Origin: Synergistes jonesii
Lineage (GTDB): Bacteria; Synergistota; Synergistia; Synergistales; Synergistaceae
NCBI RefSeq assembly: GCF_000712295.1
Contig: NZ_JMKI01000021.1
Location: 1 to 64,000, forward strand
DNA: 64,000 nt
Direction of reading: 5' to 3'
In this document: piece by piece, positions 26,432-36,372 of the stretch
Position numbering within the stretch: the stretch's first letter is position 1
Layout of the letters: every line of letters starts with the position of its first letter
Translations under genes and position numbers: made by a program
Notes under the pieces: generated by a model
Seen by the model: only the letters and a program-made list of their open reading frames with translations
Database searches by the model: none
Told to the model about the DNA's origin: nothing

Positions 26432-26680
26432 TTGACCAAAATCGTGATCTGTGTGGGAAGTTCATGCCACCTCAAGGGCGCTCGCCGCGTCGTCGAGGGG
26501 CTTGTGAAAATCGTCGAAGCGCGCGGCCTCAAGGGTGAGATAGAGCTCTCGGGCTCCTTCTGTATGGGGCGCTGCTCCGAGAAGGGCGTGTCCGCGTCGG
26601 TGGACGGCAAAATCTGCTTCATCGATCCCGACCGTCTGGAAGAATTTATCGACGGCGTCTTCGGCGGGGGCGGACGATAA
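26432..26680 (+). CDS. [2Fe-2S] thioredoxin-like ferredoxin
   Basis: 82 residues, TTG start with GGGAGGGCGG upstream. The four ligands are in CVGSSCHLKG and GSFCMGRCSEKG, the pattern of the NuoE/HymA-type [2Fe-2S] fold reduced to a single domain. It ends where the sensory hydrogenase starts (stop overlapping ATG region). It is probably the electron carrier of the sensory hydrogenase module. Confidence 0.85.
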   Translation: MTKIVICVGSSCHLKGARRVVEGLVKIVEARGLKGEIELSGSFCMGRCSEKGVSASVDGKICFIDPDRLEEFIDGVFGGGGR

Positions 26681-28416
26681 TGAAATACATACATGTGGCG
26701 CAGGCCAACTGCAAAAATTGCTATAAGTGCCTGAAGGTCTGTCCCGTCAAGTCGATAAGGTACAAAGACAATCACGTCGAAGTGCTGGATGAAGAATGCA
26801 TACTCTGCGGCCGCTGCATCCGCAATTGCCCGCAGCACGCGAAGTCGCTCACTAACGACATCAGCGCGATCAGGGGCGCGCTGCGCGCCGGCGGGCGGGC
26901 GCGCGTCGCGGCGCTTGCGCCCTCTTATATCGCGTCGTTCGGCGCGGATAATCGTTTCAAGCTCGCAGGAGCGCTGCGGCGGCTCGGCTTCGACGCCGTC
27001 GAAGAGACGGCCGTCGGCGCGCACGCCGTTACGCGCGAGTACGCGCGCATCCTTGAAAGCGGCAAGATGGACAACATGATAACGACCTGCTGCTCTTCGC
27101 TCGTCTTTCTCGTGCAGAAATATTTCCCGCGGCTGACGCCCCAGCTCGCCCCTGTGCTCTCGCCGATGGAAGCCCACGGCGCGTGGCTGCGGAAGAAGTA
27201 CGGCGCGGACGCGCTCATAGTCTTCTTCGCCCCCTGCATCTCGAAGATAGAGGAGGCGCGCACTTCACCGGCGCACAATATCAGCGGCGTCGTGACATTC
27301 AAACAGCTGTCTGAATGGTTAGAAGAGGAAGACATCTCCATCTCCTCAGCTCCGGAGGGCTTTTTCGGCAGCGACCCAAGCGCATCGGCGATATATCCTG
27401 TCTTCGAGGGCATCACCGAGGACGTGCGCGCAAATCTGCCGCCGGATTCCCCGGTCTTCGACCGTTATTCATTCCTCAGCCTACAGGGCGCTAAGGATGT
27501 CGTCGAAATGCTGGAAGAGATGCAGGCCGGGCGGCTGCACGACTGCTTCATCGAAGCCGGGATCTGTTACGGCAGCTGCGTCAACGGCCCCGAGAAGCCG
27601 GACAGCGGCTATATGCCGATCAGCACCGCCCTCGAGCTGAGGCGCTATCTGAAAAAGGAAGAGAAGAACGCGCGCGAGATGGACCTTTCTTCAGTGGAGC
27701 TGGCGCGCGTCATAGAGCCGACCCCGGTGCGGATGGAAATTCCGGATGAAAAGACGATACGCTCGATACTCGCCCAGATAGGCAAGACCGATCCCTCGCA
27801 CGAGCTCAACTGCGGCAGCTGCGGCTACCGCACTTGCCGCGAGAAGGCGATCGCCGTCTACCAGAAGAAGGCTGAGCTCTACATGTGCATGCCTTATATG
27901 AGCCAAATATCCGAGACGCTCGCAAATGTGACGCTATCAGTCAGCCCAGATTACATCATCGCCGTCGACGACGCCTTGCTCGTCAGGGAATGCAACCTCG
28001 CCGCGCAGCACCTCTTCCGATTGACGCGCGACAAAATCGTCGGACGCCGCATCGACGACTTCCTCGACCCGTACGATTTCGCGATCTCGATCGGAGAACG
28101 GAAGGATATACCGCTGCACAAGGTGCGCTATAAAAAGCGCGGCATCACGGTCAATCAGACGGTCGTCTACATAAAGGAGCAGGGGCTGGCCATCGCCTTC
28201 CTGCACGACATTACGAAAGAAGAGGAAGAGGCCGAGGAGCTCGGCAGATTAAAGCTGGATACGATGGAGATGGCGCAGAACGTCATAGACAAACAGATGA
28301 CCGTCGCTCAGGAAATAGCGAGCCTGCTCGGCGAGACGACCGCAGAGACGAAGGTAACTCTGACGAAATTGAAGAACCTCATCATCTACGACGGGAAGAA
28401 CGAAGGCAATGGATAG
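26680..28416 (+). CDS. Sensory [FeFe]-hydrogenase (HydS-like) with PAS domain
   Basis: 578 residues. Order: two [4Fe-4S] motifs (C11-C21 and C40-C50). Next is an H-cluster domain with motif L1 TTCCSS (C137, C138), L2 FAPCISKIEEA (C186) and L3 EAGICYGSC (C296, C300). Then comes a further Fe-S motif NCGSCGYRTC with C403, and a PAS domain (about 415-510) ending in a short helix. All four H-cluster cysteines and the proton-relay Cys are present, but the flanks differ from catalytic enzymes (TSCCP, MPC, GCxxGGG). This matches the group C sensory hydrogenases. It overlaps a PP2C phosphatase gene, its likely output. Confidence 0.88.
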   Translation: MKYIHVAQANCKNCYKCLKVCPVKSIRYKDNHVEVLDEECILCGRCIRNCPQHAKSLTNDISAIRGALRAGGRARVAALAPSYIASFGADNRFKLAGALRRLGFDAVEETAVGAHAVTREYARILESGKMDNMITTCCSSLVFLVQKYFPRLTPQLAPVLSPMEAHGAWLRKKYGADALIVFFAPCISKIEEARTSPAHNISGVVTFKQLSEWLEEEDISISSAPEGFFGSDPSASAIYPVFEGITEDVRANLPPDSPVFDRYSFLSLQGAKDVVEMLEEMQAGRLHDCFIEAGICYGSCVNGPEKPDSGYMPISTALELRRYLKKEEKNAREMDLSSVELARVIEPTPVRMEIPDEKTIRSILAQIGKTDPSHELNCGSCGYRTCREKAIAVYQKKAELYMCMPYMSQISETLANVTLSVSPDYIIAVDDALLVRECNLAAQHLFRLTRDKIVGRRIDDFLDPYDFAISIGERKDIPLHKVRYKKRGITVNQTVVYIKEQGLAIAFLHDITKEEEEAEELGRLKLDTMEMAQNVIDKQMTVAQEIASLLGETTAETKVTLTKLKNLIIYDGKNEGNG

Positions 28417-29584
28417 TCTCTGCATAGACGCCTGCTACAGCAGCCTCAACAAGAAAGACGAAGAACTCTGCGGCGACCGCGTCCTGATTACCAGCTCCGC
28501 CGGCGGCACGCTGCTGGTGCTCTCCGACGGACTCGGCAGCGGCGTTAAAGCCAACATCCTTTCGACTCTGACCTCGAAGATCATCTCCACGATGATAAAC
28601 CGCGGCGCGACGATAGAGGACACTGTTGATACTATTGCGCACACGCTGCCGGTATGCAAAGAGCGCGGCATCGCCTACTCCACCTTTATGATACTGCAGA
28701 TCGAAAAGGACGGCCGCGGCTATCTGGCGGAGTACGACAACCCCCCCTGCATGCTCATACGCGGAGGCGTCCACGTGCCTTTCGCATACAAAGAAAAGAC
28801 CATCGGCGGCAAGCTTGTGCGTGAATCCCGCTTCACGGCGCAGCGCGGCGATTATTTCGTCATTGTCAGCGACGGCGTGACGCAGGCCGGCATGGGCGAA
28901 ACGCTCTCCTTCGGCTGGGGTGAAAAGGAAGTGGCGGACTTTCTCTGCGCCCCCTGCTCTCAGAAGCTTTCCGCGCCGCGCGTCATCGGCAGCGTGCTGG
29001 AAGTCGCAAGGGAGCTCTACCTCGGCAGGCCGGGCGATGACACGACGGTCTCGATAGCCCACATCCTGCCGGAGCAACAGGTCTGCCTCTTCTCCGGGCC
29101 GCCGCGCCATCCCGCGGACGACGCGCGCCTCGTCCGCGAGTACATGGAGACGGGCGGGATGCACATCGTAAGCGGCGGCACCAGCTCGGAGATCCTGGCG
29201 CGCGAGCTCGGCAGGAAGCTTGAAGTCAGCATAGACTACGCGGACAGCGACATTCCGCCGACGGCCGCCATCGCGGGCATCGATCTCGTCACGGAAGGGG
29301 TCATGACGCTGAAGCGCGCCATCGAGATCATCGAAACGTACACGAGGTTTCCCGCCGCCGCGGAGACCACCGCGGCGCTCGACAGGCCCGACGGCGCCGC
29401 GAAGCTCGCGAAGATACTTATCGAACGCTGCACTCATCTGAAGCTCTTCATAGGCAAGAGCGTGAACCCGGCGCATCAAAACCCAGACTTCCCCACCGAG
29501 CTGCGCGTCAAGTCGCGTCTCATGGACGACCTCGGCAACGCCATGGCGCGCCTCGGACGCGCCGTAGACAAAAAATATTATTAG
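28409..29584 (+). CDS. SpoIIE/PP2C-type Ser/Thr protein phosphatase
   Basis: 391 residues. The PP2C catalytic core shows LLVLSDGLGSGVKAN, VIVSDGVTQAGMGE and GRPGDDTTVSIAHI, with the metal-binding aspartates. An extra C-terminal domain of about 170 residues follows (MHIVSGGTSSEILARELGRK, MTLKRAIEIIETY). Its ATG overlaps the hydrogenase gene by 8 nt. PP2C phosphatases follow group C sensory hydrogenases in other anaerobes, so dephosphorylation in response to H2 or redox is the inferred role. The target protein is not identifiable here. Confidence 0.85.
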   Translation: MDSLCIDACYSSLNKKDEELCGDRVLITSSAGGTLLVLSDGLGSGVKANILSTLTSKIISTMINRGATIEDTVDTIAHTLPVCKERGIAYSTFMILQIEKDGRGYLAEYDNPPCMLIRGGVHVPFAYKEKTIGGKLVRESRFTAQRGDYFVIVSDGVTQAGMGETLSFGWGEKEVADFLCAPCSQKLSAPRVIGSVLEVARELYLGRPGDDTTVSIAHILPEQQVCLFSGPPRHPADDARLVREYMETGGMHIVSGGTSSEILARELGRKLEVSIDYADSDIPPTAAIAGIDLVTEGVMTLKRAIEIIETYTRFPAAAETTAALDRPDGAAKLAKILIERCTHLKLFIGKSVNPAHQNPDFPTELRVKSRLMDDLGNAMARLGRAVDKKYY

Positions 29585-30383: not shown

Positions 30384-30398
30384 TAAGAGGTGTTCGCT

Positions 30399-30992
30399 AT
30401 GAAGGTTACGATGCAGGACGTTGCAAATCACGCCGGAGTCGACAAGGCTACGGTCAGCCGGGTCCTGCGCGGCGATCACCGCATTTCGGAGAAAACGAAG
30501 ATCAAAGTGATGGAGAGCATCCGGGCTCTCGATTATAAAATCGATCGAAACGCCAGGAGCCTCTCGACAAATTCGAGCGGGCTCGTCGGCGTCGTTGTGC
30601 ATGCGCTCGGCGTGCCGTGGCTGGGCGCTTTCCTCGCCGGCATCGACCGCGCCTTTTCAAATTCCGAATATGAGATACTGCTGAAGGCCACGGAGGCAAA
30701 CGAGACGCGCGCACGCCGGATCGTCGGAGCGCTCGGAGAACGGCACGTCGAAGGGCTCATATGGTGCGACGCGGAAAATCCGCCGCGCGCCGCCGGCATC
30801 CCCATCCTGTGCGTCGGCTTCGCCAAGGAGGGCGAATATTCCGTCACCGCGGAGGGCGGAGGTGACCCGACCTTCGAAACGGGCGCGATGGTCGGGCGCA
30901 TGATGCTGAAGATTTTAGCCGGCAGGCCCCTGCCGGGACGCGATATAAGGATCGTCTCGCCGGAGACGGGCGACAGAGAAAGTCTGGCCTAA
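30399..30992 (+). CDS. Shortened LacI-family repressor (most of C-subdomain missing)
   Basis: 197 residues from ATG with AAGAGG 8 nt upstream; LacI proteins are usually about 330. The DNA-binding part is complete: TMQDVANHAGVDKATVSRVL, then the hinge helix NARSLSTNSSGLVG. The N-subdomain follows to IPILCVGFAKEG. It then jumps to sequence that normally ends the protein (ETGAMVGRMMLKILAGRPLP, IRIVSPETGDRES). About 110-130 residues forming the C-subdomain are absent without any frameshift. Dimerisation and ligand binding should be altered. It stops 6 nt before the binding-protein gene. Confidence 0.82.
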   Translation: MKVTMQDVANHAGVDKATVSRVLRGDHRISEKTKIKVMESIRALDYKIDRNARSLSTNSSGLVGVVVHALGVPWLGAFLAGIDRAFSNSEYEILLKATEANETRARRIVGALGERHVEGLIWCDAENPPRAAGIPILCVGFAKEGEYSVTAEGGGDPTFETGAMVGRMMLKILAGRPLPGRDIRIVSPETGDRESLA

Positions 30993-30998
30993 CGCTCT

Positions 30999-32675
30999 AT
31001 GTCGATCTCTCAGAAATTTTTCTGCGCGCTTCTGCTGCTCGCCCTTTCGATCTCGCCGGCCGCCGCCCTCACGGATAAAAAGATCGACATATCGAAGCTT
31101 CGGGGCCCTAAAATATCCGAGCTCTCGATGCTGATCATCTCGAACCCCGACGCGCAGATAATGGCCGCGGAGGCCGGAGAGCTCGACATAATCGGCGACA
31201 TAGCGCGGCCGTCGGATATCGACAGGCTCGCGAAGAACAAGAATCTGCAGATGTCCATAGCACGCGGCTTTCACGCTTTCTTCCTGCTGCTGAACAATAA
31301 AAAAAGTCCGTGGGACGACGCGGCTCTGCGCCGCGCGGCCGCGATGTCCATCGACAGGAGCGGCATCGTGAGGATGATTTTCAGCGGCTACTGCGAGCCG
31401 ATAAATTCATGGCTCCCGCCGGTATCGCCATGGGCGCCGGCAGGCGGCGCCCAAGACATTTACAACCCGCAGGCTGCGCGCGCGCTGCTCAAAAAGAGGG
31501 GCTATTCGTGGAACATGGCGGGAAGGCTCGTCGCGCCGGACGGCAAGGAGATGCCGGCGATGAAGCTGCTGACTCCTCTCGCGCGCGTCTCGCCGACGAC
31601 GGCGGAGCTTGCGCAGACGATAGCGGATTCGCTTTCCTCGGCGGGCTTCCCCGTCGAAACGGAACCGATGGACTTTTCGACGATGATCAACCGCCTCGAC
31701 CGCAAGGATTATTCAATGGCGGTGCTCGCGTGGAGCATGGGAAGGAATCCCGACTCGCTTTATTCGTTCTACCACAGCTCGATGGACTTCGACGGCGGCT
31801 ATAACATGACCGGCACGTGCGACGCGCGCCTCGACAGGTCGCTGGAGGCGCTGCGCGGCGCGCCGGACGAAGCGTCGGCGCGGAAGGCAGCGCGCGAAGC
31901 CCAGCGCGCGCTGCTTGAACTTATGCCCTCCATTCCTATTTACAGCCGCTTCTCCGTAACCGCCGTCTCGAAAAAGTGGAAAAATATTTTTACGACGGAG
32001 AGCAGCACGGCCGACAATATGTGGACTCTGCTCGCGGCCGAGCCCCGCGGCGGCGTAGGGCGCCCTCTGACGATGCTGCTTCCCGAGGAGCCGCGCAACC
32101 TGAATCCCTTCACCGCTTCGTCGGCCTATTCGTGGCAGGCGCTCGGCGTGATTTACGAATCTCTGCTGACGACTGATCCCTATACCTTAGAAAATATGGA
32201 CGCGATAGCCTCGTCGTGGAAGGTCGCGGTGGCGGGAAGCGGGCGCGCGCGCCACACGGAGCTCACCTTCAAAATAAAGCGCGGACTGCGCTGGAACGAC
32301 GGCTCGCCGCTGACCGCGCGCGATATAAAGGCGACCGTTGATTTTCTGCGCAGAAATAAGATTCCGCGCTTCTTCGACGCGGTGAAAAACATAAAAAGGA
32401 TCGAGACGCCGGACGATCATACGCTGCGCGTCGTGATGGAGGACGTCAGCTACTGGTATCTCGACAACGTAGCCGGGCTTCCGGCGATGCCCGCAAAGGT
32501 CGTAAACGCCGTGCGCGACTGGCAGAACTGGGACCCTCTCGCCGGCGGGGGCGAAGCTGGTCCCGCCGGACTCATCGGAAGCGGCCCCTTCATGCTTAAG
32601 GGCTACAGAGCCGGAGAGTATCTGCTGTTTGAGAGAAATCCGCATTACAGGCTGCTGGAGGGCGCGGTGAAATGA
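30999..32675 (+). CDS. Peptide ABC transporter solute-binding protein, halves in permuted order
   Basis: 558 residues with a signal peptide (MSISQKFFCALLLLALSISP, cut near AAA-L). It is a SBP_bac_5 (DppA/OppA) protein, but the order is swapped. Residues about 36-345 match the latter part of the family (GPKISELSMLIISNPDAQIM, AMSIDRSGIVRMIFSGYCEP, SWLPPVSPW). Residues about 355-550 match the opening part (TMLLPEEPRNLNPFTASSAY, RWNDGSPLTARDIKATVDF, GSGPFMLKGYRAGEYLLFER, NPHY). The natural family order would join NPHY to GPKISEL. The frame is continuous and the operon intact, so it should be made. It is probably periplasmic and feeds the DppBCDF-like genes that follow. Confidence 0.88.
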   Translation: MSISQKFFCALLLLALSISPAAALTDKKIDISKLRGPKISELSMLIISNPDAQIMAAEAGELDIIGDIARPSDIDRLAKNKNLQMSIARGFHAFFLLLNNKKSPWDDAALRRAAAMSIDRSGIVRMIFSGYCEPINSWLPPVSPWAPAGGAQDIYNPQAARALLKKRGYSWNMAGRLVAPDGKEMPAMKLLTPLARVSPTTAELAQTIADSLSSAGFPVETEPMDFSTMINRLDRKDYSMAVLAWSMGRNPDSLYSFYHSSMDFDGGYNMTGTCDARLDRSLEALRGAPDEASARKAAREAQRALLELMPSIPIYSRFSVTAVSKKWKNIFTTESSTADNMWTLLAAEPRGGVGRPLTMLLPEEPRNLNPFTASSAYSWQALGVIYESLLTTDPYTLENMDAIASSWKVAVAGSGRARHTELTFKIKRGLRWNDGSPLTARDIKATVDFLRRNKIPRFFDAVKNIKRIETPDDHTLRVVMEDVSYWYLDNVAGLPAMPAKVVNAVRDWQNWDPLAGGGEAGPAGLIGSGPFMLKGYRAGEYLLFERNPHYRLLEGAVK

Positions 32676-33637
32676 ACGCCGGATGGTTCGCAAAGCGCCT
32701 TCTTTCGTCGCTCTTCGTGCTCGCGGCGGTGATAGCGCTGAACTTCATACTATTCCGCATGATGCCGGGCGACGCGGTGAGCACTATAATCGACCCCTCC
32801 TTCTCGCCGGAGGCGAAGGAGAATCTCCGCGCGATCTACGGCCTCGACAGGCCGCTGGCGGAGCAGTTCATGATCTACGTCAAGCGGATGCTGACGTTCA
32901 GCTTCGGGCTCTCCTTCATCAGCAGAAAGCCCGTCTGGGAAGAGTTGCTGTCGCGGCTGCCGGCGACGCTCGCGCTGACGTCGGCCTCGATGGCCCTTTC
33001 GGCGGCTTTCGGCATCTGGCTCGGCATAAAGGCGGCGCTCTGCCGCGGACGCCTCGCCGAAAAGATAGTCCTTGGCGCGAGCGCCGTGACGGCCTCCTTT
33101 CCGGGCTTTTTCGTCCAGCTCGTGCTGCTGATGCTCTTCGCGCGAGCGCTGCCGATTTTCCCGCTGCGCGGCACGCTCTCGGCGCCGCCTCCCTCCGGGA
33201 CGATGAATCTATTTTTTGATTACGTCCGGCATATGGCGCTGCCGGTGATATCCCTTTCGCTGATAGGCTTCGGAGGCTGGGCGCTCTACGTGCGCAACCT
33301 GATGGTGCGCGCGCTCGGCGAGGATTTCGCGCTGATGGCGCGTGCCCGCGGCCTGCCGCGAGGGCGGGTCGTCTGGCACGCCTTCCGCACCATACTGCCG
33401 CCGATAATAACTATTTTCCTGATGTCCGTCCCCGGGCTCGTCTCCGGCGCGGTGATCACGGAATCCGTCTTCTCTCTGCACGGCGTCGGCACGTTCCTGC
33501 TCGAAGCCGTCTCCGGGCACGACTACCCCGCCGCCGGCGCCGCCTTCTATCTTCTCGCGCTGATCACGGTATCCTGCAATTTAGCGGCCGACGTCAGCTA
33601 CGGCTTCGCGGACCCGCGCGTAAGATATCGAAGGTAA
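32672..33637 (+). CDS. Peptide ABC transporter permease, DppB type
   Basis: 321 residues with six hydrophobic segments. The N-terminal WFAKRLLSSLFVLAAVIALN leads into the DppB-type periplasmic segment MMPGDAVSTIIDPSFSPEAK. The EAA-type cytoplasmic loop is DFALMARARGLPRGRVVWHAF and the ending is the usual VSYGFADPRVRY. It overlaps the binding-protein stop by 4 nt (ATGA). Confidence 0.92.
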   Translation: MNAGWFAKRLLSSLFVLAAVIALNFILFRMMPGDAVSTIIDPSFSPEAKENLRAIYGLDRPLAEQFMIYVKRMLTFSFGLSFISRKPVWEELLSRLPATLALTSASMALSAAFGIWLGIKAALCRGRLAEKIVLGASAVTASFPGFFVQLVLLMLFARALPIFPLRGTLSAPPPSGTMNLFFDYVRHMALPVISLSLIGFGGWALYVRNLMVRALGEDFALMARARGLPRGRVVWHAFRTILPPIITIFLMSVPGLVSGAVITESVFSLHGVGTFLLEAVSGHDYPAAGAAFYLLALITVSCNLAADVSYGFADPRVRYRR

Positions 33638-33643
33638 AAAAGA

Positions 33644-34813
33644 ATGAAGGCACTCTTTCTGCGCAAGAGCGCGATAGCCCTCGCAGCGATCGCGCTCGTC
33701 GGAATCTTCGCGCCTCTCTTCGCCTCCGCTCCGCCGCAGGAGATAGTGGGAGCGCCTTTCGCGCGCCCCATCTGGTGGAAGAGCGGCAAACTTCCAGCCG
33801 CAAAGTCTTTCGACGTAAAGATCGACGGGATTGAATTCGAATGGGAGGACGAGCCTCCGGCGATCTTTTCACTTTACGGGCGCGTCACGGCCGACGCCTC
33901 TTCCGAGGTCCGCGTGATATGGCGCACGCCGCGGAAGGAATACCTACTCGAAAGGCTGAGCGGCTCCGAACTCTACTGGATCAACAGCGACGGGCGCGAC
34001 ATGATCTTCAAGCAGGCTCTCGGGCTTCCGCTCGTCAGCAGGAGCGTCGATCACCTCTTCCCGTCGCGCGGAAAATATTCGCTATCCGTCGAGGGCGCTA
34101 AGGGCGCGGAACTCCGTCTCCTCCTGCCCGGCGAGAGGCAGGGGCTGCTGGGCACTGACCAGCGCGGAAGGGACGTCTTCACTCTCTTCCTCTACGGCAT
34201 AAGGACCTCTCTGATCATCGGCACCGCGGCGACCCTCGTCGCAAGTCTATTAGGCGTGTCGCTCGGCCTCGCGGCCGGATACGCCGGCGGCCTGTGCGAC
34301 GCGCTGATCATGCGCGCGGTCGACGTGCTGCTTTCGATACCGACCCTGCCGATCCTGATGGCGCTCGCCGCAGTCTGGGGAAAGGGGCTCTGGCAGCTCG
34401 TGCTGATTCTTTCTATGTTTTCGTGGATGGGCACCGCGCGTTCGGTACGCTCGCTCGTGCTGACGCTGCGCGAAAGCGCGTGGGTCGAATCGCTGCGCGC
34501 GCTGGGCGCGTCGCGCGGCTACATCCTGCGGCGGCACCTGCTGCCCGAGACTGCCCCGATACTGCTCGCGAATGTCGCGCTCGGCGTGCCGGGAGCTATT
34601 CTTTCGGAGGCAGGTCTGGCCTTCCTCGGCCTATCGGATCCACGCCTCATCTCGTGGGGCAGAATGCTTCACGAGGCGCACTCCTTCGGCGCCTTCACGC
34701 AGGGCGCCTGGTGGCTGCTGCTGCCCCCGGGGCTCGGCATCGTAGCGGTCTGCCTGATATTCCTCGACATGGGGAAGTTCCTCGAAGAAAAGATAGACCC
34801 GAGGCTCGGATAA
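33644..34813 (+). CDS. Peptide ABC transporter permease, DppC type, with periplasmic insertion
   Basis: 389 residues, longer than the usual 280-300. The extra length is a beta-rich periplasmic region of about 130 residues after the first membrane helix (roughly 30-165: DVKIDGIEFEWEDEPPAIFS, then RVIWRTPRKEYLLERLSG). It precedes the family hallmark LLGTDQRGRDVFTLFLYGIR. The EAA loop is WVESLRALGASRGYILRRHLLPE. The insertion may contact the unusual binding protein; that is speculation. Confidence 0.9.
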   Translation: MKALFLRKSAIALAAIALVGIFAPLFASAPPQEIVGAPFARPIWWKSGKLPAAKSFDVKIDGIEFEWEDEPPAIFSLYGRVTADASSEVRVIWRTPRKEYLLERLSGSELYWINSDGRDMIFKQALGLPLVSRSVDHLFPSRGKYSLSVEGAKGAELRLLLPGERQGLLGTDQRGRDVFTLFLYGIRTSLIIGTAATLVASLLGVSLGLAAGYAGGLCDALIMRAVDVLLSIPTLPILMALAAVWGKGLWQLVLILSMFSWMGTARSVRSLVLTLRESAWVESLRALGASRGYILRRHLLPETAPILLANVALGVPGAILSEAGLAFLGLSDPRLISWGRMLHEAHSFGAFTQGAWWLLLPPGLGIVAVCLIFLDMGKFLEEKIDPRLG

Positions 34814-35596
34814 ATGATAATCGAAGTAAAGCATCTAAGCGTGACCTACAACGCGCGGTCGAAATCCGCCGCAAATGCGGTGAAGGATATTTCTTTCGCG
34901 CTGCGCGAAAATTCCTTCTGCGGGCTCATCGGCGAATCGGGCAGCGGCAAAAGCAGTGTGGTGATGACGATGCTCGGGCTTATGCCGAACGGGGGCGAGG
35001 CGCGCGGCAGCATTTTATACCGCGGCCACGAGATACTCGGCGCGCCGGAGAAGGAGATGCTGGCGCTGCGCCAGCGCCGCCTCTCGCTTATACCGCAGGG
35101 CGCGATGAACTCCTTCACTCCGGTCATGACGATAGGAAGACAGATGCGCGAGGTTATAATGCTGCATATGGGAGCCACGGCGTCGGAGGCGGAGAGGAAA
35201 AGCGCCGAACTTCTCGAAGAGGCCGAGCTTCCGGCGTCGGCGGCGGCGCGCTATCCTCACGAGCTTTCCGGCGGGCAGAAGCAGCGCGCCGCGATAGCGA
35301 TGGCCCTCTCCTGTTCTCCTGAAGCCCTGCTCGCCGACGAGCCGACGACGGCGCTCGACGTCGTGACGCAAGCTGCGATCATACGCCTGCTGGAAAGGCT
35401 GCGGCGCGAAAAAAATCTTACGGTGCTGCTCGTCACGCACGACCTGCCGATGGCGGCGTCGGCCTGCGAAGAGCTCTTAGTGATGAAGGATGGCGAGATC
35501 GTCGAGCGCGGAGAGTCGAAGCGGCTGATTTCGTCTCCCGAGAATGAGCACACCAAAGCGCTCGTCGCCGCGATGCTGAGGAATGAAAGGCCATGA
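34814..35596 (+). CDS. Peptide ABC transporter ATPase, DppD type
   Basis: 260 residues. Walker A is GESGSGKSS, signature LSGGQKQRAAIAMAL, Walker B ALLADEPTTALD, H-loop VTHD. It begins immediately after the DppC stop and overlaps the next ATPase by 4 nt. It lacks the C-terminal Fe-S cysteines seen in some Dpp ATPases. Confidence 0.92.
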   Translation: MIIEVKHLSVTYNARSKSAANAVKDISFALRENSFCGLIGESGSGKSSVVMTMLGLMPNGGEARGSILYRGHEILGAPEKEMLALRQRRLSLIPQGAMNSFTPVMTIGRQMREVIMLHMGATASEAERKSAELLEEAELPASAAARYPHELSGGQKQRAAIAMALSCSPEALLADEPTTALDVVTQAAIIRLLERLRREKNLTVLLVTHDLPMAASACEELLVMKDGEIVERGESKRLISSPENEHTKALVAAMLRNERP

Positions 35597-36372
35597 CGGA
35601 AAACATTCTCGAGACAAAAGAGCTTGCCGTTGAATTCAGCCCGCGCGGTAAAAAGCGCGTCCGCGCGCTCGGCGGCGTCTCGCTGTCGCTCTCGCGCGGA
35701 GAAACGCTCTCCGTAGTCGGCGAATCCGGCAGCGGTAAGAGCACTCTGCTGCGGGCCGCTATGGCGCTGATTCCCACCTCCTCCGGCGGCGTGCTGCTCT
35801 TCGGCAGGGACGTTTCAAAGCTTTCGCCCGCGGAGTTGAAGGCGCTGCGCCGCCGTTGCGGTTACGTGCCGCAGGACCCTTACGGCGCAATCCCCCCAGC
35901 CCTCAGCGCGATAGAGGCAGTCGCGGAGCCATATATCATCGCCGGCGTAAAAAGCTCCGGAGAGGAGCGCCGCGAACGCGCGGAAAAAATCCTTTACAGC
36001 CTTGGGCTGAGCGGAGAAAGGATATTGAACGCCCGCGCCGCCGGGCTCTCAGGAGGACAGCGCCAGCGCGTGGAGATAGCGCGCGCCCTTATGCTCGGGC
36101 CCGAGCTGCTGCTCTGCGACGAACCGACCTCGATGCAGGACGCCTCGACTCGCGGCGAGATAATCGACGCGCTCGCAAAGCGCGTGAAAGCCGGCATGTC
36201 GATGCTCTTCGTGACGCACGACCTGCTGCTCGCGGCACACGCGTCGCAAAAGATGATAGTCCTGAAAGACGGGAAAATATGCGAAAGGGGCGCGGCGCGG
36301 GAGATTCTATCTTCGCCGAAGCACCCCTACACGAGAGCGCTGATCGAAGCGCTGCCGAAGCTAAAATTTTGA
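35593..36372 (+). CDS. Peptide ABC transporter ATPase, DppF type
   Basis: 259 residues. Walker A is GESGSGKSTLL, signature LSGGQRQRVEIARAL, Walker B LLLCDEPTSMQD, H-loop VTHD. In place of the usual SALD after Walker B it reads SMQDAST, mild divergence of the D-loop. It is the last gene of the 30.3-36.4 kb operon. Confidence 0.9.
   Translation: MTENILETKELAVEFSPRGKKRVRALGGVSLSLSRGETLSVVGESGSGKSTLLRAAMALIPTSSGGVLLFGRDVSKLSPAELKALRRRCGYVPQDPYGAIPPALSAIEAVAEPYIIAGVKSSGEERRERAEKILYSLGLSGERILNARAAGLSGGQRQRVEIARALMLGPELLLCDEPTSMQDASTRGEIIDALAKRVKAGMSMLFVTHDLLLAAHASQKMIVLKDGKICERGAAREILSSPKHPYTRALIEALPKLKF

Follow-up and report, generated by a model that had tools for sequence, protein, structure and literature searches.

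The genome of Synergistes jonesii encodes, in the 64,000-nucleotide stretch of DNA analysed here (the window), a substrate-binding protein (SBP) of the SBP_bac_5 family. An earlier note on this DNA had proposed that the protein is circularly permuted, with the C-terminal two-thirds of the family domain placed first and the N-terminal third last. The locus poses two questions: is the exchanged order genuine, and does the gene that carries it still function? The best explanation as a whole is that the protein is a working, vertically inherited circular permutant of SBP_bac_5 (cluster C), to which we assign a probability of about 0.9.

The family domain is present once, with its parts exchanged

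The SBP reading frame is 558 residues long and open throughout, with a Sec signal peptide, and the claim that neither a frameshift nor a stop interrupts it is correct. The gene is made up of the following parts.

30999..32675, + strand: permuted SBP_bac_5 substrate-binding protein, 558 aa (Pfam, family HMM, AlphaFold model)
30999..31067, + strand: signal peptide, residues 1-23 (...ISPAAA followed by L), without a lipobox (sequence; helix 3-18 of the model has low confidence)
31104..32009, + strand: family C-terminal two-thirds, residues 36-337, corresponding to family HMM positions 212-502 (Pfam, HMM)
32031..32066, + strand: joint, residues ~345-356, where the old C-terminal strand (WTLLAAEP) runs into the old N-terminal strand
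32067..32648, + strand: family N-terminal third, residues ~357-550, corresponding to HMM positions ~34-208, with the last letters ...LLFERNPHYR

Against Pfam PF00496 the protein scored 221 bits, exceeding the gathering cut-off of 32.4. Residues 36-260 matched profile positions 145-363, and a stretch further downstream in the same frame matched positions 15-141; together the two cover essentially the whole model, and the ordinary N-to-C order is replaced by one in which the parts are exchanged. In an HMM of 511 positions made from five ordinary-order members, residues 36-337 aligned to positions 212-502 and residues 361-550 to positions 34-208. These swapped matches in Pfam and the HMM show that almost the whole family domain is present, in a single copy. 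In these alignments the boundaries given in the earlier note (36-345 and 355-550) proved right to within about 10 residues, and the signal peptide does precede the moved half, standing now before the family C-terminal part.

A re-ordering control was carried out with tblastn on 72,556 plasmids. In its natural order the query gave no record with one place covering at least 80% of its length, and after re-ordering it gave 1,046; order aside, the two queries differ in the trimming of their ends, and the E-value limit was slightly laxer in the natural-order search. The rise from 0 to 1,046 records, combined with the constant order in the 44 Synergistota loci dissected below, argues against a chance arrangement. 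The solved PDB relatives among the matches listed all have the ordinary order. With the Pfam order swapped and this result from the control, the claim of circular permutation in SBP_bac_5 is upheld.

Predicted fold and position of the chain ends

AlphaFold, supplied with permuted homologues only and without templates, returned one confident fold (pLDDT 91.4, pTM 0.85), a result that fits a permutation. Foldseek aligned ~300 columns to solved SBP5 structures with a TMq of ~0.45, in a comparison that is bound to chain order; values of this kind are what such a comparison should give for exchanged parts.

The single fold also bears on the origin of the gene. A fusion of two neighbouring SBP5 genes, one supplying its C-terminal part and the other its N-terminal part, would yield an identical gene map, and adjacent SBP genes do occur (a Phyllobacterium match lies under two adjacent features). 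The scores of the two halves over 40 ordinary members correlate weakly (rho 0.24, p 0.14, not significant), which would also fit such a fusion. Against it, both halves point to the same nearest ordinary-order protein, L141, which ranks first of 40 against the N part and second of 40 against the C part, and they jointly give one confident fold. We regard a two-gene fusion as improbable and prefer permutation of a single family member. In the S. jonesii genome, a Pfam profile search found the permuted protein as the sole SBP_bac_5 member.

In the mechanism that we propose, a short linker bridges the two former chain ends, which both lie in the N-lobe, and the new ends come from the opening of a different loop of that lobe, between the strand ...ERNPHY and the strand GPKISEL.... 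The known domain layout of OppA and DppA would place the old and new ends all in this one lobe, so that the number of hinge crossings should still be two; the effect on the hinge suggested in the earlier note was therefore overstated. The order in which the lobes pass through Sec does change, as the note had said. After export the chain would fold to the usual two-lobe flytrap.

Distribution and conservation in the Synergistota

The genome that contains the window is a draft in 60 contigs, and the order might stem from an error in its assembly or binning, or from a recent rearrangement of the locus in S. jonesii alone. We found the same order and the same cut in 108 of 188 independently assembled genomes of the phylum, spread over 46 of 63 genera and at least 10 families, and a profile search gave the same number. 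Most of these 108 genomes, single-contig ones included, give a match that is unbroken over the joint, a result that rules out an assembly artefact and leaves the artefact reading with a negligible probability. The suggestion that the same order be sought elsewhere in the Synergistota thus led to a lineage-wide trait, and an intact, true circular permutation within SBP_bac_5 is supported.

We dissected 44 distinct Synergistota loci with intact frames. In these the first part begins at HMM positions 204-213 and the last runs to positions 208-214, a constancy that points to one shared cut loop, between the strand ...RNPHY and the strand GPKISEL...; the cut described earlier at NPHY and GPKISEL lies in this same loop in all 44. 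The joint consensus MEPxxGxxRP is retained among orthologues. In a tree the permuted proteins of the Synergistota form one clade with 100% support, and some lineages of the phylum are without the system. The simplest reading is a single event early in the phylum, then vertical descent and losses. The event itself would most likely have been a tandem duplication or fusion, after which copy 1 lost its front and copy 2 its tail.

The gene could also be decaying and open by accident. In two genomes of one genus a stop or a break in the frame interrupts the SBP gene (L090:5696-7449 and L091:2-1711), and the remaining operon genes are there. Elsewhere dN/dS over the whole gene is 0.11-0.34 (five pairs), similar in both halves and relaxed in neither; dozens of columns across both halves are invariant among 43 orthologues; and the SBP-B-C-D-F gene order is retained in most Synergistota loci. 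These sequence comparisons indicate that the gene is under purifying selection and that its function is kept, in line with the earlier view that it appears functional, and they make decay very improbable.

Several genomes of one family (loci L063, L060, L062 and L073, in G132, G124, G129 and G133) have a divided or interrupted operon in which C, D or F is absent or has moved.

Operon and substrate

The genes around the SBP follow the plan of a peptide/nickel ABC importer of the Dpp/Opp/Nik type, with an SBP, two permeases and two ATPases, preceded by a regulator.

30390..30992, + strand: short LacI-family regulator, 200 aa, effector domain internally deleted
32672..33637, + strand: DppB-type permease (Pfam PF00528, PF19300; order conserved)
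33644..34813, + strand: DppC-type permease with an extra periplasmic domain (Pfam; AlphaFold pLDDT 89; Foldseek matches to E. coli DppC and M. tuberculosis OppC)
34814..35596, + strand: DppD-type ATPase (Pfam; conserved order)
35593..36372, + strand: DppF-type ATPase (Pfam; conserved order)

All five transporter genes had been said to overlap. This holds for SBP and B and for D and F, by 4 nt each, but B and C are separated by a gap of 6 nt, and C and D abut. The LacI-type gene, probably co-transcribed with the operon, has a full DNA-binding domain and an effector domain ~130 residues shorter than usual; the same truncation is conserved in the regulator that precedes the permuted SBP in nine genomes of the family. 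Further upstream, at 26680-29584 of the window, a hydrogenase-like protein with Fe-hydrogenase C-terminal, ferredoxin, FeS and PAS domains lies directly before a SpoIIE-type phosphatase, and the two resemble a sensory [FeFe]-hydrogenase pair.

In E. coli DppA the termini of the dipeptide are held by R383 (carboxylate) and D436 (amine), in precursor numbering (PMC12136057). Both are absent from the Synergistota permutants compared, where they align to A/S and G/S/T. The description of the locus as a Dpp operon is for this reason not supported where dipeptide transport is meant, and we rejected an ordinary Dpp substrate. The NCBIfam equivalog models gave 55 bits for DppA (cut-off 1005) and 99.8 bits for NikA (cut-off 393), scores well short of both cut-offs, although the swapped order itself depresses them. 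At the place of the missing DppA residues the clade has a strongly conserved motif, AWSMxRDPDSLYxFYHSSMDVxGGYN, which probably forms a different pocket. The ligand, probably no plain dipeptide, would be passed to the DppBC-type channel, with the D and F ATPases supplying the power. Judged from gene content, most Synergistota would import a nutrient using a permuted binding protein.

An extra domain in the partner permease

Between TM1 and the GTDQRGRD motif the DppC-type permease has ~130 additional residues, predicted to form a beta-rich periplasmic domain (pLDDT ~90).

33722..34138, + strand: additional periplasmic domain, rich in beta structure, at residues 27-165 of the DppC-type permease (AlphaFold)

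The domain has no match in Pfam and none in the plasmid collection. It occurs in 106 Synergistota genomes, nearly always in single copy; 105 have both the domain and the permuted SBP, three the SBP alone and one the domain alone. In the nearest ordinary relative of the clade the C permease is of ordinary length. Co-inheritance within one operon accounts for much of this association. Two genomes (G132 and G134) retain the C gene although it has moved away from the SBP gene, and this retention without linkage makes it likely that the extra domain contacts the permuted SBP. The P2 loop of MalF docks and holds the maltose-binding protein, and by analogy the DppC domain probably helps to dock or hold the SBP.

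Other permuted SBP_bac_5 proteins

The natural-order tblastn query also led to a Nitratireductor protein that matches the middle to the end of the query and then its first third. This protein belongs to a second permuted SBP5 clade, from Alphaproteobacteria and haloarchaea, which is cut at Pfam position ~285, in the C-lobe. Used in its own natural order, it matched 51 plasmid records over at least 80% of its length, and nine were dissected. Second-clade proteins include the following.

L092:5944-7542: Nitratireductor
L094:4932-6581: Halalkalicoccus
L097:4938-6623: Roseomonas
L095:4929-6539, L098:4806-6524, L099:4851-6584, L100:4944-6620 and L101:4962-6638: further second-clade proteins

Their genes often adjoin peptidase or hydantoinase genes. 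A third cut, in domain II, was seen in a single example, a lipoprotein of a Subdoligranulum variabile plasmid (L093:5599-7389) with a Ser/Ala-rich tail after it. Permutation is therefore not confined to S. jonesii or to the Synergistota. Outside the phylum either permuted type is known from plasmids alone, the genome-contig scan covering close relatives only, and a scan of viral contigs gave one weak SBP5 fragment and nothing more.

The second clade and the Synergistota proteins are alike in being natural SBP5 permutants that head permease-ATPase operons. They differ in the cut, which lies in the C-lobe in the second clade and in the N-lobe in the Synergistota, and in the C permease, which in the second clade is of ordinary length except in Nitratireductor. 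There (L092:8631-10304) ~300 extra residues with propeller-like repeats and a weak Tachylectin match lie between TM1 and TM2. A general rule that a permuted SBP goes with an insert in the C permease holds in the Synergistota and, with this unrelated insert, in Nitratireductor, and fails elsewhere, since annotated second-clade operons have a C permease of ordinary length.

Did the two clades arise from one fused tandem ancestor, trimmed at different places? A motif, WT..LxxEP, seemed common to both joints, but a strand of similar sequence closes the ordinary members, and the motif is no evidence for a shared joint. Their linkers are of similar length, a likeness that mostly reflects the ordinary family ends. 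In a first tree the two clades were sisters with 95% support, which fell to 9 with more ordinary relatives. In the tree with these added relatives both clades cluster with one ordinary protein at 96% SH-aLRT. A more careful tree groups the ordinary-order L141 with the second clade (94/72), a placement in favour of two separate events; in it, forced sisterhood of the two clades is not rejected (p-AU 0.40). We consider a shared fused ancestor unlikely. Only slightly less tentative is a broader proposal, in which SBP_bac_5 would have been permuted several times at different loops (in the N-lobe for the Synergistota, in the C-lobe for Alphaproteobacteria and haloarchaea and in domain II for Subdoligranulum) and the Synergistota SBP and permease domain would have co-evolved into a different docking arrangement.

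Comparison with known systems

Natural permutants reveal which loops of a fold tolerate chain ends without loss of function, and for one of the most abundant SBP families the answer comes here from a whole bacterial order and from a separate clade of Alphaproteobacteria and haloarchaea. Family models and annotation pipelines score permutants as split or partial matches, so that the trait is easily missed. Whether SBP topology and docking partners evolve together can be tested directly on the permease domain that accompanies the protein.

For SBP_bac_5 and cluster C we found no report of natural permutation in the open literature, most subscription papers lying outside the coverage of the search. 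The earlier statement that no such permutant had been described stands to that extent; the protein is no one-off, given the second clade and the third type. Natural permutation is apparently new for this family, and was known before in cluster B. There TpMglB-2 (Tp0684), termed 'Type Ic / Cluster Bc', is a natural permutant among the SBPs of ABC importers, with a crystal structure, and with ligand binding and closure shown (PMC4990184). It belongs to the Type I sugar-binder class, has a shorter moved segment, is lipid-anchored and has an extra hinge crossing. In contrast, the Synergistota SBP is a cluster C protein, its sequence and fold matches being to SBP5 and not to the MglB-type fold; it has ~200 residues moved, lacks a lipobox and should have no extra crossing.

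The cluster C SBPs DppA, OppA, AppA, NikA and GsiB belong by sequence to the same fold family, and the Synergistota protein shares with them a near-complete domain at the head of a B-C-D-F operon. Unlike them it has swapped parts and lacks the amine- and carboxylate-binding residues of DppA, and the nearest ordinary members found are ~24-30% identical to it. The transporter plan is that of E. coli DppABCDF and of M. tuberculosis DppABCD and OppABCD, and the core of the C permease superposes on theirs (Foldseek). The Synergistota system differs from both in its permuted SBP and in the additional domain of ~130 residues between TM1 and TM2 of the C permease.
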